This document shows positions 3,243 through 12,146 of a stretch of 36,670 bases of DNA, piece after piece; the first letter of the stretch is position 1, and every line of letters starts with the position of its first letter. The position numbers and the translations under genes are program-made. The DNA is from a virus. The DNA lies in the IMG/VR virus record IMGVR_UViG_3300009514_000059, positions 1 through 36,670 of that record; one strand, given 5' to 3'. Under the pieces are notes generated by a model. That model had not been told where the DNA came from. It did no database searches and saw only the letters and a program-made list of their open reading frames with translations.

Positions 3243-3507
3243 GCAAGTGCCTTTCCATATGTTCTTGGCAGAAATGGTGGCCAAAAAAATCCACCGTTGG
3301 CGCATTGACGCACTTGTGGGCGCGGCAAAACTTGGGGTGATTGTTGTCATAGATCGGAAACGAATATGTGTGGCGCGCGCGACGTATCAGCCTCGCCCTG
3401 GCCATATCGGTTCGATGCCACAGCATGCATGTGTGCCTGACGGCAATGATTGTCATCAGGAAAAACGACACCAAAAAAACGGTCAATGCAACATAGGTAA
3501 TCAGCAT
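3208..3507 (-). CDS. Small membrane protein with C-terminal Cys/His cluster
   Basis: 99 residues. An N-terminal transmembrane helix (LITYVALTVFLVSFFLMTIIAV) is followed by a basic stretch and then a Cys/His cluster (FCRAHKC, then HHFCQEHMERH) that could bind one zinc ion on the cytoplasmic side. It overlaps the downstream lipoprotein start by 35 bases. The RBS is weak. I recognise no family. Confidence 0.6.
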   Translation of the reverse strand: MLITYVALTVFLVSFFLMTIIAVRHTCMLWHRTDMARARLIRRARHTYSFPIYDNNHPKFCRAHKCVNAPTVDFFGHHFCQEHMERHLHEISIDARVDC

Positions 3508-3565: not shown

Positions 3566-4000
3566 TCAGGATACCCCTGTCGATCCGAACCCCTTGGAGC
3601 CTCGATCCGTATCATCCGACACAGCGCCGGGTAAGAGGTGAAAATGTGGTTGATTCAAAAACAGCAACTGCGCCACGCGAGCACCGGCCTTGAGCTCGAG
3701 CTCATCGGCGCTAGCGTGAGACCCAAGCGTCAGCATGGCCATGATCTCGCCACGATAGTCAGAATCGATGAGACCAGGCGAATTGACCAACACCACACCA
3801 GCCCGGCTTAACCCTGACCTTGGCAGCACCAGTGCGCACCACCCTTCCGGCATGCTCAAGCGCACGCCAGTTGCCGCCATTGTGACCTTGCGGTGACTGA
3901 TGACGATGTCAGATGTCACGCGCAAATCCAGCCCGTTGGCGCCCGGGGTGGCTTGCACGGCGTCCCCCTGAATGATGATGGTGGTGGATTTTTCTGGCAT
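3566..4000 (-). CDS. dut: dUTP diphosphatase (dUTPase)
   Basis: Hydrolyses dUTP to dUMP and pyrophosphate, keeping uracil out of phage DNA and feeding dTMP synthesis. All five trimeric dUTPase motifs are visible in order: GLDLR, PRSGLS, GLIDSDYRGEI, AGARVAQLLF and the C-terminal RGSKGFGSTG. The ATG at 4000 is preferred because AGAGGG lies about ten bases upstream; a TTG at 4009 would be too close to that RBS. 144 residues is normal for the family. It follows the HTH regulator gene with only five bases between. Confidence 0.95.
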   Translation of the reverse strand: MPEKSTTIIIQGDAVQATPGANGLDLRVTSDIVISHRKVTMAATGVRLSMPEGWCALVLPRSGLSRAGVVLVNSPGLIDSDYRGEIMAMLTLGSHASADELELKAGARVAQLLFLNQPHFHLLPGAVSDDTDRGSKGFGSTGVS

Positions 4001-4005
4001 GCGGT

Positions 4006-4200
4006 TCAACCCTCTAAGTTATAGAAATCGCTAGGCATTACCTCGCCATCGGTGACATCAACGATCTTGGTCATGAATTTGGCTGATGGCAGGCGTTGCC
4101 CGTGAGCCCATCTCCACACAACCGGGGCCGTTGTCCCCACCATGATGCCGAAAGCGGCGTATGTGAAAGCGTTCTCCGTCAACCAATCCTCTAGCGTCAT
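4006..4200 (-). CDS. Cro/XRE-type helix-turn-helix regulator
   Basis: 64 residues, almost all one HTH domain. The stretch AAFGIMVGTTAPVVWRWAHGQRLPSA is typical of Cro-like phage repressors: helix, turn, then a recognition helix TAPVVWRWAHG. There is no dimerisation or cleavage domain, so it is a Cro-size rather than a CI-size regulator. It is the first gene of the leftward cluster and is read from the divergent control region, whose palindromic 15-mers are the obvious candidate binding sites. There is no Shine-Dalgarno before its ATG, and the predicted transcription start coincides with the ATG. Confidence 0.85.
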   Translation of the reverse strand: MTLEDWLTENAFTYAAFGIMVGTTAPVVWRWAHGQRLPSAKFMTKIVDVTDGEVMPSDFYNLEG

Positions 4201-4207
4201 GCCTATC

Positions 4208-4236
4208 AGTGTAGATTTTTTTTGTCAACATGGCAA
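4208..4236 (-). promoter_or_regulatory. Leftward promoter for the HTH-dut cluster, probably leaderless
   Basis: On the minus strand, TTGCCA (4236-4231) as -35, a 17-base spacer and TACACT (4213-4208) as -10 put the transcription start seven to eight bases on, at the ATG of the HTH gene (4200). No Shine-Dalgarno precedes that ATG. The -35 hexamer is one arm of the palindrome at 4222-4236, so the binding protein would block this promoter. Confidence 0.5.
4222..4236. promoter_or_regulatory. Operator O1 (TTGTCA-ACA-TGGCAA)
   Basis: A 15-bp near-palindrome with six-base arms and a three-base centre. It differs at only two positions from the perfect palindrome at 11856-11870 and shares its layout with the one at 4265-4279. 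It overlaps the -35 of the leftward promoter. It is probably bound by the adjacent Cro-like protein, by analogy with phage immunity regions. Confidence 0.6.
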
Positions 4237-4242
4237 TATGGC

Positions 4243-4271
4243 TTGACCGACAAGTTGCCATCAATTACCAT
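4243..4271 (+). promoter_or_regulatory. Rightward early promoter, probably leaderless
   Basis: TTGACC (4243-4248) and TACCAT (4266-4271) are separated by 17 bases. The expected start is at 4278-4279, which is the A of the ATG of the first rightward gene (4279). No ribosome-binding site lies upstream of that ATG. The -10 is inside the palindrome at 4265-4279. A lone half site TTGCCA sits at 4255-4260. Confidence 0.5.
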
Positions 4272-4279
4272 TGTGACAA
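4265..4279. promoter_or_regulatory. Operator O2 (TTACCA-TTG-TGACAA)
   Basis: A 15-bp imperfect palindrome with the same 6-3-6 layout as O1 and the distal copy at 11856. It covers the -10 of the rightward promoter and touches the start codon, a position where a bound repressor would block RNA polymerase. Confidence 0.5.
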
Positions 4280-4476
4280 TGAGCAAACATCAGTCAGAGG
4301 CAATCAAGCTGCAACTCGAGGCGGAGCGCTTGCGCACCAAGCTTGAATACGAGCGCAGCCTGACCATTGATGAGCGCGCGCTGATTCTGGAGCACATAAA
4401 GTGGTGCGACGATGAGGCAGCGTGGCACATCATGGCCGCCAACGCTGAACAACACAACAAGGATGGCAACGGATGA
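4279..4476 (+). CDS. Small helical hypothetical protein, first rightward early gene
   Basis: 65 residues, start ATG at 4279. The first half is a heptad-like charged helix (KLQLEAERLRTKLEYER), the second half acidic with one Cys and two His. An in-frame ATG-like start upstream at 4222 would lie inside the promoter/operator region and is rejected. It is the first gene after the divergent control region and its stop overlaps the next start (ATGA). No family recognised; an early phage regulator or host-takeover peptide is possible. Confidence 0.6.
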   Translation: MSKHQSEAIKLQLEAERLRTKLEYERSLTIDERALILEHIKWCDDEAAWHIMAANAEQHNKDGNG

Positions 4477-4874
4477 TAAATAAACGTGCAGTGGCTTATT
4501 GGTCATGGAATTGCGTCAACGATCAGGTGATGATGCCTGGCATGCTGGCAACTGTGGTGTATGAAAACAACGCATGGGAAGTCTGGCAGCCATTGGCGTC
4601 AGTCAATATCTCTGGTCAGGTTGGCGATTTGCCGGAGCTCACGCCGCCCAGCCGAGCGCCGGACTGGATCCGGCCTGGATGGTCATGGGACTCACACCGC
4701 CGCATCGTTGTGGCCACAACGCCTGAGTCAGAATGGAATGACGACACAATGCCTATGCGTATTCCGGTGATTGAGCCACCACGCGACAACCCGATCTGTA
4801 GATGCCTGTCGTATAAGCTCGCCCACCACGGGCATGACGACACATGCCCATTGCACCCTGACAACAAAAAATGA
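4473..4874 (+). CDS. Hypothetical early protein
   Basis: 133 residues, rich in Trp and Pro, with a His/Cys-rich tail (CRCLSYKLAHHGHDDTCPLH) that could hold a metal. AAGGA lies eight bases before the ATG, which also overlaps the previous stop. No family recognised. Confidence 0.65.
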   Translation: MINKRAVAYWSWNCVNDQVMMPGMLATVVYENNAWEVWQPLASVNISGQVGDLPELTPPSRAPDWIRPGWSWDSHRRIVVATTPESEWNDDTMPMRIPVIEPPRDNPICRCLSYKLAHHGHDDTCPLHPDNKK

Positions 4875-4888
4875 AAGGATCCCCCGCC

Positions 4889-5956
4889 ATGAAGATCAAA
4901 ATCCGACCATCCAAACGCCCGTTGTCACTGCTTTGTGCATCCAGCGTGCTGGATCCACAGTTTCCGATTTCATCGGACAACATCTATACCCGCAAAGGCA
5001 AAGGCGTGCATGATTCGATCGTGCTTGTTCTGCGTGACGGCATGGCGCCCGATGACGCGGTTGAGAAAGTTGCCACCAGGTATGGCATCAATACCGAAGA
5101 AGTGGCCGAGCTGTTGCACAACGCCAGGCGAGCTCTGGCCAACATTGAGGATCACTTGCCAGAGGGGACCGTGTTCTATGAGCGATCGCTCAGCCGGGGG
5201 ACCCCTGACTGGATGTTGGTGTCAGAGGATCTGATCGTGATCATAGATTGGAAATCTGGGATGCTCGAGACCGACGCCAAAGAACAGCTGACCGACTATG
5301 CAGATCAGGCCCGCGCTGAGTTTGGCAACAAGCCGGTCAAGGCCATTGCCATCAATCTGGCGGTTGGCTCGTCGTACACCCACGATATTGGACAGGACGA
5401 AATTGACGCCATGTGGCAACGCGATACTCAGGTGCAACGCAATGCCGGCAAAGAGTATGCACCCGGATCGCACTGCGGGTATTGCCCAATGCGGTACGAA
5501 TGCGAAGCACGCACGCAATATGCCCTGGCATGCATGTACGCACTGACGGATGCCACCATTGACGATCTGTCATATGAACACCTGTCGGCCCTGTACCCGC
5601 AGGTGCTGTTGCTCGAGAAAGTGCTTGATGACTATCGATCGGCACTGCGGGCGGCGGTCATTGATGCACAGCCATTGCCGCTGCCTGACGGGCGTGAGCT
5701 GGTTATGATCGATAAGAAAAAGATGCACATTGATCCGCGGCATGCGTGGCCTGTGTTGGCTCAACGGTTTTCTGAGGAGCAAATGCGCGCATTTGTGGCC
5801 ATCAAAAAAACAGCAGTGGTCAAGGCGGTCAAATCAAATGCACCGCGCGGCAAGGGCGCCGCTGCCGAGCGAGAATTTGTTAACCAGCTTGACAAAGCCG
5901 GCGCCGTCTCATACGTGTTGCAACGCTCCATATCGGCACGCAAACCGAAAGGATGA
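4889..5956 (+). CDS. PD-(D/E)XK nuclease with Fe-S cysteines (Cas4/AddB/RecB-like)
   Basis: 355 residues from the ATG at 4889, which has AAAGGA upstream; the earlier in-frame ATG at 4871 overlaps that RBS. Nuclease signatures appear in order: His41 (GKGVHD), Asp107 (TPDWML), Asp120-Trp-Lys122 (IIDWKSG) and a QxxxY motif (Q133-Y137). Cys16 plus Cys196, Cys199 and Cys205 (HCGYCPMRYEC) match the split four-cysteine iron-sulfur pattern of AddB and Cas4 exonucleases. It should resect DNA ends to give the single strands used by the RecT protein encoded immediately downstream. No cas genes are nearby, so a recombination role is far likelier than CRISPR adaptation. Confidence 0.85.
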   Translation: MKIKIRPSKRPLSLLCASSVLDPQFPISSDNIYTRKGKGVHDSIVLVLRDGMAPDDAVEKVATRYGINTEEVAELLHNARRALANIEDHLPEGTVFYERSLSRGTPDWMLVSEDLIVIIDWKSGMLETDAKEQLTDYADQARAEFGNKPVKAIAINLAVGSSYTHDIGQDEIDAMWQRDTQVQRNAGKEYAPGSHCGYCPMRYECEARTQYALACMYALTDATIDDLSYEHLSALYPQVLLLEKVLDDYRSALRAAVIDAQPLPLPDGRELVMIDKKKMHIDPRHAWPVLAQRFSEEQMRAFVAIKKTAVVKAVKSNAPRGKGAAAEREFVNQLDKAGAVSYVLQRSISARKPKG

Positions 5957-5961
5957 AACCA

Positions 5962-6765
5962 ATGACCAAGGCACTCACCAAGGCCAACGCCGCCTTGCAA
6001 GAAATCAACCGCTATTTCAAGACAAAACAGAGCAGCATTTTACAGGATGTTGCCGACAAGCCAGCGGCTCGCCTGGCCATACGATCAGCCATGATCCGCG
6101 TGGCCGAGCACGAAAAACTGAGGGAATGCACGCCGTCCAGCCTGGTGCGATCAGTGTCAAAGGCCGTCATCATGGGGCTCGATTTCGAGCGCCAGCATTG
6201 CTACCTGGTACCGTTTTACAACAAGAAAGAGCAAGCAAACGAGGCCACCTTGATGGTGAGCTATAGGGGATACCAGTTCAAGGCCGGCCAATCCGGGTAT
6301 CAAATCGTCGCTGAAACAGTTTACGATGATGAGGATTTTGAGCTCACCATAGCTCCCATGCACATCATGCATCGCCCAAACCTTGCAGGCAGCAAAGGCA
6401 AGCGCCTGGGGGCCTATGCGGCCGCATATCGCAATGGTACCTTGGTGGCAGTAACCTGGTGTACGAATGACGATCTAGACAAGGCGCGCAAGATGGCAGA
6501 GGCCCGCAAGCCATCTGGAGCGTGGCAGAATTGGCCCAAACGCATGGAGAGAAAGCTGCCAATCAGCCGCCTATGCAAAGAGCTGCCTGACCTGGATCGC
6601 AACCTTGTGGCATACGATCAGGCCGAGGATGAGGGCAGCGCCCATAGCGCAATCATTGATGCGCCGGAGGATTTGACGCCCGTAGTGCCTGACAAGCTGT
6701 CTGCCGGGAAATCATGGGGATTTGGCCCATCTGAGCTACCGGATTCGGAGCCGCCGGCCGCATGA
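5962..6765 (+). CDS. recT: RecT-family single-strand annealing protein
   Basis: 267 residues. The ATG at 5962 is eight bases after AAAGGA, whereas the ATG at 5953 overlaps that site. Family features include SLVRSVSKAVIMGLDF, then CYLVPFYN, then EATLMVSYRGYQFKAGQSG, the RecT core. The C-terminus is acidic and Pro-rich. RecT anneals single strands during homologous recombination and normally works with an exonuclease; here the Fe-S nuclease upstream is the likely partner. The stop overlaps the next start. Confidence 0.92.
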   Translation: MTKALTKANAALQEINRYFKTKQSSILQDVADKPAARLAIRSAMIRVAEHEKLRECTPSSLVRSVSKAVIMGLDFERQHCYLVPFYNKKEQANEATLMVSYRGYQFKAGQSGYQIVAETVYDDEDFELTIAPMHIMHRPNLAGSKGKRLGAYAAAYRNGTLVAVTWCTNDDLDKARKMAEARKPSGAWQNWPKRMERKLPISRLCKELPDLDRNLVAYDQAEDEGSAHSAIIDAPEDLTPVVPDKLSAGKSWGFGPSELPDSEPPAA

Positions 6766-11799: not shown

Positions 11800-11855
11800 G
11801 CCCATCAGGAAAAATGACACCGTGTGCTTTTCCGTATTGACAACACGGCCTCTGT

Positions 11856-11870
11856 TTGCCAATATGGCAA
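11856..11870. promoter_or_regulatory. Distal operator, perfect palindrome TTGCCA-ATA-TGGCAA
   Basis: A perfect six-plus-six palindrome with a three-base centre, matching O1 at 13 of 15 positions. A perfect -35 hexamer TTGACA lies at 11837-11842; 17 bases on, CAATAT (11860-11865) is a poor -10 inside the palindrome. The site probably controls the operon that starts at 11961 through the same regulator as the divergent region. Confidence 0.6.
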
Positions 11871-11889
11871 TAGATACTGCAGCACAACA

Positions 11890-11936
11890 GAGCCGGTCGG
11901 GACGCCAATCAAGGCAGCGACTAACCCGACCGGCTC
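11890..11936. repeat. Strong hairpin with perfect 12-bp stem in the 11961 leader
   Basis: GAGCCGGTCGGG (11890-11901) is exactly complementary to CCCGACCGGCTC (11925-11936), with a 23-base loop that can form a small inner GCC/GGC stem. It lies between the distal operator and the RBS of the next gene, so in the transcript it would be a 5' leader hairpin. The lack of a T-run argues against an intrinsic terminator. Confidence 0.65.
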
Positions 11937-11960
11937 ATGTGCAGGAAAGGCAAACCGACC

Positions 11961-12146
11961 ATGGAAACAGGCACCCCGAACTATTGGCATGATCGAAAGT
12001 GGCGCCGCATCCGCAAGCGCTGGTTGAAGGCAGCAGATGAGGGCAATCCTCGTTGGGCCAGGATCTGGTTTAACGCCCTGGCCCAACTCGAGGGCGCAGA
12101 CCGTGGGGGGAGGTGGCTTGAGGTTTTGGGGGTAGACCATGACTGA
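11961..12146 (+). CDS. Small basic hypothetical protein
   Basis: 61 residues from the ATG at 11961, with AGGAAAGG upstream; an ATG at 11937 overlaps that site and is rejected. Rich in Arg and Trp (DRKWRRIRKRWLKAA), suggesting nucleic-acid binding. First gene after the distal operator and leader hairpin. Ends inside the start of the next gene. Confidence 0.65.
   Translation: METGTPNYWHDRKWRRIRKRWLKAADEGNPRWARIWFNALAQLEGADRGGRWLEVLGVDHD

Follow-up and report, generated by a model that had tools for sequence, protein, structure and literature searches.

The window analysed here is the whole of IMG/VR record IMGVR_UViG_3300009514_000059, a contig of 36,670 bases with a G+C content of 56%. The terminase, portal, major head protein, tail sheath, tape measure and baseplate genes present in it indicate a contractile-tailed phage, i.e. 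an uncultivated myovirus. In the phage collection, a DNA search with the first 25 kb of the window gave no close relative; for the large terminase, the best among the matches listed from that collection is Aeromonas phage 56, with 37% identity. Protein scans revealed no close relatives of the helix-turn-helix (HTH) protein described below, of the exonuclease or of the helicase in viral contigs, nor of the HTH protein in genome contigs. Neither tRNA genes nor Rfam families were found in the window. The locus of interest is the 78-base gap between two divergent start codons, ATG 4200 on the minus strand and ATG 4279 on the plus strand (Table 1).

Table 1. Genes, promoters and predicted operators of the divergent region and of the region near 11.86 kb
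Feature	Position	Strand	Sequence or remarks
dUTPase	3566-4000	minus	downstream of the HTH gene, same direction; searched as ORF 3566-4009
64-aa Cro/C1-type HTH protein (P0001)	4006-4200	minus	phrog_35 transcriptional repressor, E 4.9e-6
Promoter of HTH gene	4236-4208	minus	TTGCCA-17-TACACT, 9/12 to consensus, 7 nt before ATG 4200
Operator O1 (predicted)	4222-4236		TTGTCAACATGGCAA (TTGTCA ACA TGGCAA); over -35 of the HTH promoter
Promoter of right operon	4243-4271	plus	TTGACC-17-TACCAT, 9/12 to consensus, 7 nt before ATG 4279
Operator O2 (predicted)	4265-4279		TTACCATTGTGACAA; over right -10 and predicted start
Separate perfect 13-bp palindrome	4269-4281		CATTGTGACAATG; overlaps O2 and the start codon
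65-aa ORF (P0002)	4279-4476	plus	first gene of right operon; 4-bp overlap with next ORF
ORF of right operon	4473-4874	plus	no family match
Exonuclease (DUF2800/PDDEXK)	4889-5956	plus	Shine-Dalgarno GAAAGGA
RecT-like annealing protein	5962-6765	plus	searched as ORF 5953-6765
Weaker operator copy	11829-11843		TTTCCGTATTGACAA; over -35 of the 11837-11865 promoter
Promoter near 11.86 kb	11837-11865	plus	TTGACA-17-CAATAT, 13th best in the window
Operator O3 (predicted)	11856-11870		TTGCCAATATGGCAA, perfect palindrome; over -10 of the 11837-11865 promoter

The product of the leftward gene had been described as a Cro-like HTH protein in an earlier note on this DNA, and both the profile search and the fold model bear this out. 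P0001 groups with the Cro/C1-type HTH repressors of phrog_35 by its profile and by its predicted five-helix fold (AlphaFold pLDDT 94; helices 3-9, 14-21, 25-32, 40-49 and 56-59). Cro/C1-type HTH proteins head the Foldseek matches of the model, though at weak E-values, with P22 c2 (TM 0.75) among them; other structural neighbours, also at weak E-values, are C.BclI, C.AhdI, HigA antitoxins and the N-terminal domain of YdaS. No Pfam family matched P0001 at E-values up to 0.01. A search with the YdaS family (PF15943) at E-values up to 1 gave weak matches in all three A3 members, the best at 8e-4, and membership was rejected, the one score shown being 12.6 bits against a gathering cut-off of 30. 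Codon usage favours the P0001 frame. On the right side, the codon usage of P0002 (0.41 bits per codon) is the best of the six frames and is that of a real gene; P0002 matched no family, and a search of the phage collection gave no relatives.

A plain consensus scan of the 78-base gap identified a single promoter on each strand. With a sigma70 matrix based on approximate E. coli frequencies, from which those of the host may differ, the left and right promoters rank second and third in the whole contig, both strands included. Promoter matches of 9/12 are no more numerous in the contig than expected by chance; what is unusual about these two promoters is their position. A promoter of at least 10 bits is found 6-8 nt upstream of only 3 of 1,644 ATGs, namely 4200, 4279 and 1422. 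In dinucleotide shuffles of the 78-bp gap, the scores at the leaderless position have p-values of 0.001 (left, 10.4 bits) and 0.002 (right, 10.2 bits), and none of 20,000 shuffles reached both together; these p-values are uncorrected for the choice of this site in the earlier note. The scan, the matrix rank and the shuffles thus confirm the proposal made there that two sigma70-like promoters face away from each other within about 80 bp. On either side, 7 nt separate the -10 element from the ATG, so that +1 falls by standard numbering one base before the A (C4201 and A4278). Of the earlier expectation that both transcripts start on the A of the ATG, the leaderless geometry holds, and the start would be the A or the base before it; the predicted leaders would be 0-1 nt long on both sides.

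We also considered that transcription might start farther upstream, giving messages that are not leaderless and have short leaders devoid of a Shine-Dalgarno (SD) sequence, with SD-independent initiation. A weaker promoter-like site (CATATT) upstream of the HTH gene would indeed provide it with a predicted leader of 28 nt, but at gaps of 9-44 nt the best score for this gene is 7.0 bits, well short of that at the leaderless position, and nothing exceeds 2.6 bits for the right gene. Since the leaderless spacing is moreover conserved in relatives (see below), we regard starts farther upstream as unlikely and favour leaderless messages on both sides. GTG 4273, which is in frame with the right gene, was tried as its alternative start and discarded: it likewise lacks an SD sequence and is placed 1 nt past the -10 hexamer.

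The absence of SD sequences at both ATGs, stated earlier, was corroborated by the hybridisation energies with the 16S tail, which amount to -1.6 kcal/mol at the HTH gene and to -1.2 kcal/mol at the right gene. By comparison, selected ORFs, each taken at its best nearby start, have a median of -6.4, and random positions average -3.9. Both sides thus combine the two sequence features of leaderless genes, a -10 element some 5-8 nt before the ATG and no SD sequence. That most other genes have GAAAGGA-type sites is true in the sense of a 4-nt SD core, found at 32 of 54 starts; GAAAGGA itself precedes just five of the 54.

The best sigma70-like promoter in the window is found elsewhere, at 1387-1415 on the plus strand (TTGTGA-17-TATGAT), and ends 6 nt before ATG 1422. 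This codon opens a 137-aa ORF, the first in a group with DUF1353 and with an amidase gene as its last member. By its promoter position it is possibly a third leaderless gene, though its 16S-tail duplex energy is -7.3.

Relatives of the repressor were chosen by similarity of the Cro-like protein only, with the upstream DNA disregarded. Most of the first ten have the promoter signature 6-8 nt before the ATG (Fisher combined p 1.1e-7, for nine). Later relatives were fetched after this pattern had been seen; those used earlier were removed, and the set was thinned at 75% upstream identity to 38. The best promoter is located 5-8 nt before the ATG in 18 of these 38 distinct upstream regions, versus 30 of 276 control starts, which belong to the remaining ORFs of these loci (Fisher p 3.7e-7). 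One sharp peak, 5-9 nt before the ATG, dominates the mean promoter score of the 38 relatives, with a smaller rise 19-23 nt before it, and palindromes are enriched upstream of the cro-like genes (p 1.7e-6). In the exceptions, KLER1-1 and two Pelagibacter phages, the leaders are ordinary: SD-like sequences are present, and the promoters lie 27-34 nt upstream. That relatives share the geometry lends further support to leaderless messages in the window and, as judged from upstream sequences, expression of this kind seems to recur within the Cro-like repressor family. The two-sided form appears to be rarer, as a loose leaderless rule was passed by only 5 of 45 divergent ORFs opposite the HTH genes of relatives.

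By this loose motif rule, the loci L005, L051, L058, L066 and L073 are candidate switches that are leaderless on both sides. In five IMG/VR contigs (L049, L056, L060, L062 and L063), the cro-like gene faces that of a conserved protein of ~250 aa (LSASTINLWI...) that appears nuclease-like by eye; its copies in L062 and L063 matched no Pfam family.

A broader proposal, to which we incline a little less than evenly, is that leaderless expression might be ancestral or strongly selected in a large family of small Cro-like repressors of phages (MTLxDWL...VTxNDF type). Some members, like the present one, would be leaderless on both sides, and early regulators would be translated independently of the anti-SD sequence and with less dependence on initiation factors. 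In the literature covered, which comprised few of the subscription journals, we found no paper that ascribes leaderless expression to this family.

The two divergent promoters each carry a predicted operator, placed over the left -35 and the right -10 as described in the earlier note, according to which each is a 15-bp palindrome of 6-3-6 form. The 6-3-6 site of O2 is a poor palindrome, self-complementary at only 4 of 6 positions, but its bottom strand TTGTCACAATGGTAA (TTGTCA CAA TGGTAA) agrees with O1 at 11 of 12 arm positions, in inverted orientation. The 36.7-kb contig contains three matches to the degenerate pattern TTRYCANNNTGRYAA, versus 0.05 expected, and the number observed was reached in none of 100 shuffles. 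Because two of the three sites helped to define the pattern, the fair claim is that of one further site, with ~0.05 expected, located at a promoter. This site, O3, sits in an intergenic gap of 290 bases, outside the region described earlier. Its presence over a third promoter suggests that a single regulator serves three transcription units, and thus that the predicted sites O1, O2 and O3 form a small regulon.

The operators might instead be chance resemblances or be bound by another protein, so that only the promoters would matter. We consider this improbable: although O2 is imperfect, and a scan of viral contigs with the paired operator pattern gave seven matches that are mostly repeats in unrelated contexts, the arms of O1 and O2 are nearly identical in inverted orientation, and O3 is a perfect palindrome with the same consensus, over a promoter, in a window where hardly any match is expected. 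We therefore retain O1, O2 and O3 as putative operators of one regulator.

Additional features were found around O3 and in another phage. A perfect 12-bp inverted repeat, GAGCCGGTCGGG...CCCGACCGGCTC, is present at 11890-11937, just downstream of O3, and the RNA fold of 11872-11975 has a z-score of -4.5, with no U-tract after it; an attenuator or structured leader is conceivable here. The repeat CATCAGGAAAAAYGACACC is found at approximately 3453-3471 and 11802-11820, its second copy adjoining the O3 promoter. In phage contig L012, three operator-like sites, TTGTCAAGATGGCAA, TTGCCATGGTGGCAA and TTGCCATCGTGGCAA, lie at 4899-4990 upstream of a small ORF, possibly coding for an HTH protein; this ORF was located by the DNA pattern, not by protein similarity.

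The promoters, their spacing, the absence of SD sequences, the shared operators, the third site, the predicted HTH fold and the spacing in relatives together point to a compact divergent early-control region, leaderless in both directions, with a Cro-like repressor acting at O1, O2 and O3, a reading that we find rather probable. In such a region, the 64-aa, presumably dimeric repressor would be made from a leaderless message (0-1 nt) of its own promoter, and a second leaderless message in the opposite direction would open the operon with the small ORF(s), the exonuclease and RecT genes; initiation on both would be of the 70S type. By binding to O1 over its own -35, the repressor would limit its own synthesis, whereas on O2, over the -10 and the start, it would repress the recombination operon, and on O3 the promoter near 11.86 kb. 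Early transcription would thereby be tuned or shut down, which we infer to be the physiological role of the region.

Whether the region is a switch in the sense of the earlier note depends on the meaning of the term. Operators are paired and, going by the sequences of O1 and O2, shared by both promoters, as in a lambda-type switch. A switch between lysis and lysogeny would call for two divergent, mutually antagonistic repressors, the second of which might be P0002, be encoded elsewhere or have been missed. CI- or LexA-like repressors are indeed encoded opposite the HTH gene in several relatives; however, P0002 resembles no known family, and a search of window ORFs that included part of the small ones revealed neither an integrase nor a CI-type repressor, in a contig that may be incomplete. 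A classical two-repressor switch thus seems to us rather unlikely; the region probably controls early genes under autoregulation and is not a proven lysis-lysogeny switch.

Reports of leaderless repressor messages so far concern single cases, those of lambda cI, paaR2 and PY54. If leaderless expression held for the whole family, early regulation would be coupled to initiation of the 70S type, and with it to the state of the ribosomes and to stress, and the annotated starts of regulator genes could be checked by the position of the -10 element. In the window itself, three predicted operator sites make up a small regulon that is open to testing.

The closest precedent is the Yersinia telomere phage PY54, for which 5' RACE found only leaderless mRNAs of cI and cro, starting at the AUG (PMC4488713). 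The earlier statement that a switch leaderless on both sides would be unusual is weakened by this precedent, and the two-sided arrangement is not new in kind. PY54 likewise has divergent regulator genes, and the -10 element of its cro lies six nt before the ATG. It differs in that CI is encoded opposite cro and in that Cro has a single operator (OR3) and apparently does not repress itself; in the present phage, no CI was found, a recombination operon lies opposite, and predicted operators cover both promoters and a third. When PY54 was used as a control for the matrix, cro was recognised (p 0.0025) and cI was not (p 0.33); as cI has been mapped as leaderless, some real leaderless promoters escape the matrix.

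PaaR2 of the cryptic prophage CP-933P is leaderless, like lambda cI (PMC8630535). In both lambda, with cI expressed from PRM, and the PaaR2/YdaS region, a leaderless regulator gene adjoins a divergent promoter with operators, as here, but leaderless expression has been reported for one side only. The C.PvuII-dependent transcript is also leaderless (PMC2997769); C proteins of this type are small HTH autoregulators, and C.BclI and C.AhdI are among the structural neighbours of P0001 mentioned above. C.PvuII, however, drives a restriction-modification operon by positive feedback and is not divergent from phage early genes. In bacteria, 375 leaderless mRNAs have been described in Caulobacter (PMC4117421), and -10 elements adjoining ORFs are common in Deinococcus-Thermus (PMC12340547).

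Among phages with a homologous HTH protein, namely Rhizobium phage RHph_Y25, Mesorhizobium phage vB_MseS-P1, MT835519 and the IMG/VR relatives, many have no strong SD sequence and many have a promoter 5-8 nt before the ATG; several of them face a CI- or LexA-like repressor, and most of these repressors show no leaderless signature. In Pararheinheimera phage KLER1-1, the HTH gene is divergent from an exonuclease gene, as here, but has an ordinary leader. The HTH gene of Pelagibacter phage HTVC203P is divergent from those of a nuclease and an annealing protein, and the genes of HTVC010P are arranged alike, their products being unnamed; the HTH leaders of both are ordinary. Aeromonas phage 56 was rejected as a model of the early region, as its divergent HTH gene is preceded by GGAAGGAAAG, a leader with an SD sequence, unlike that of the window. 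Compared with the known leaderless systems, what differs here is the recombination operon, instead of CI, as the partner of the repressor gene, the predicted third operator and a leaderless layout that, as far as promoter positions indicate, recurs in the repressor family.
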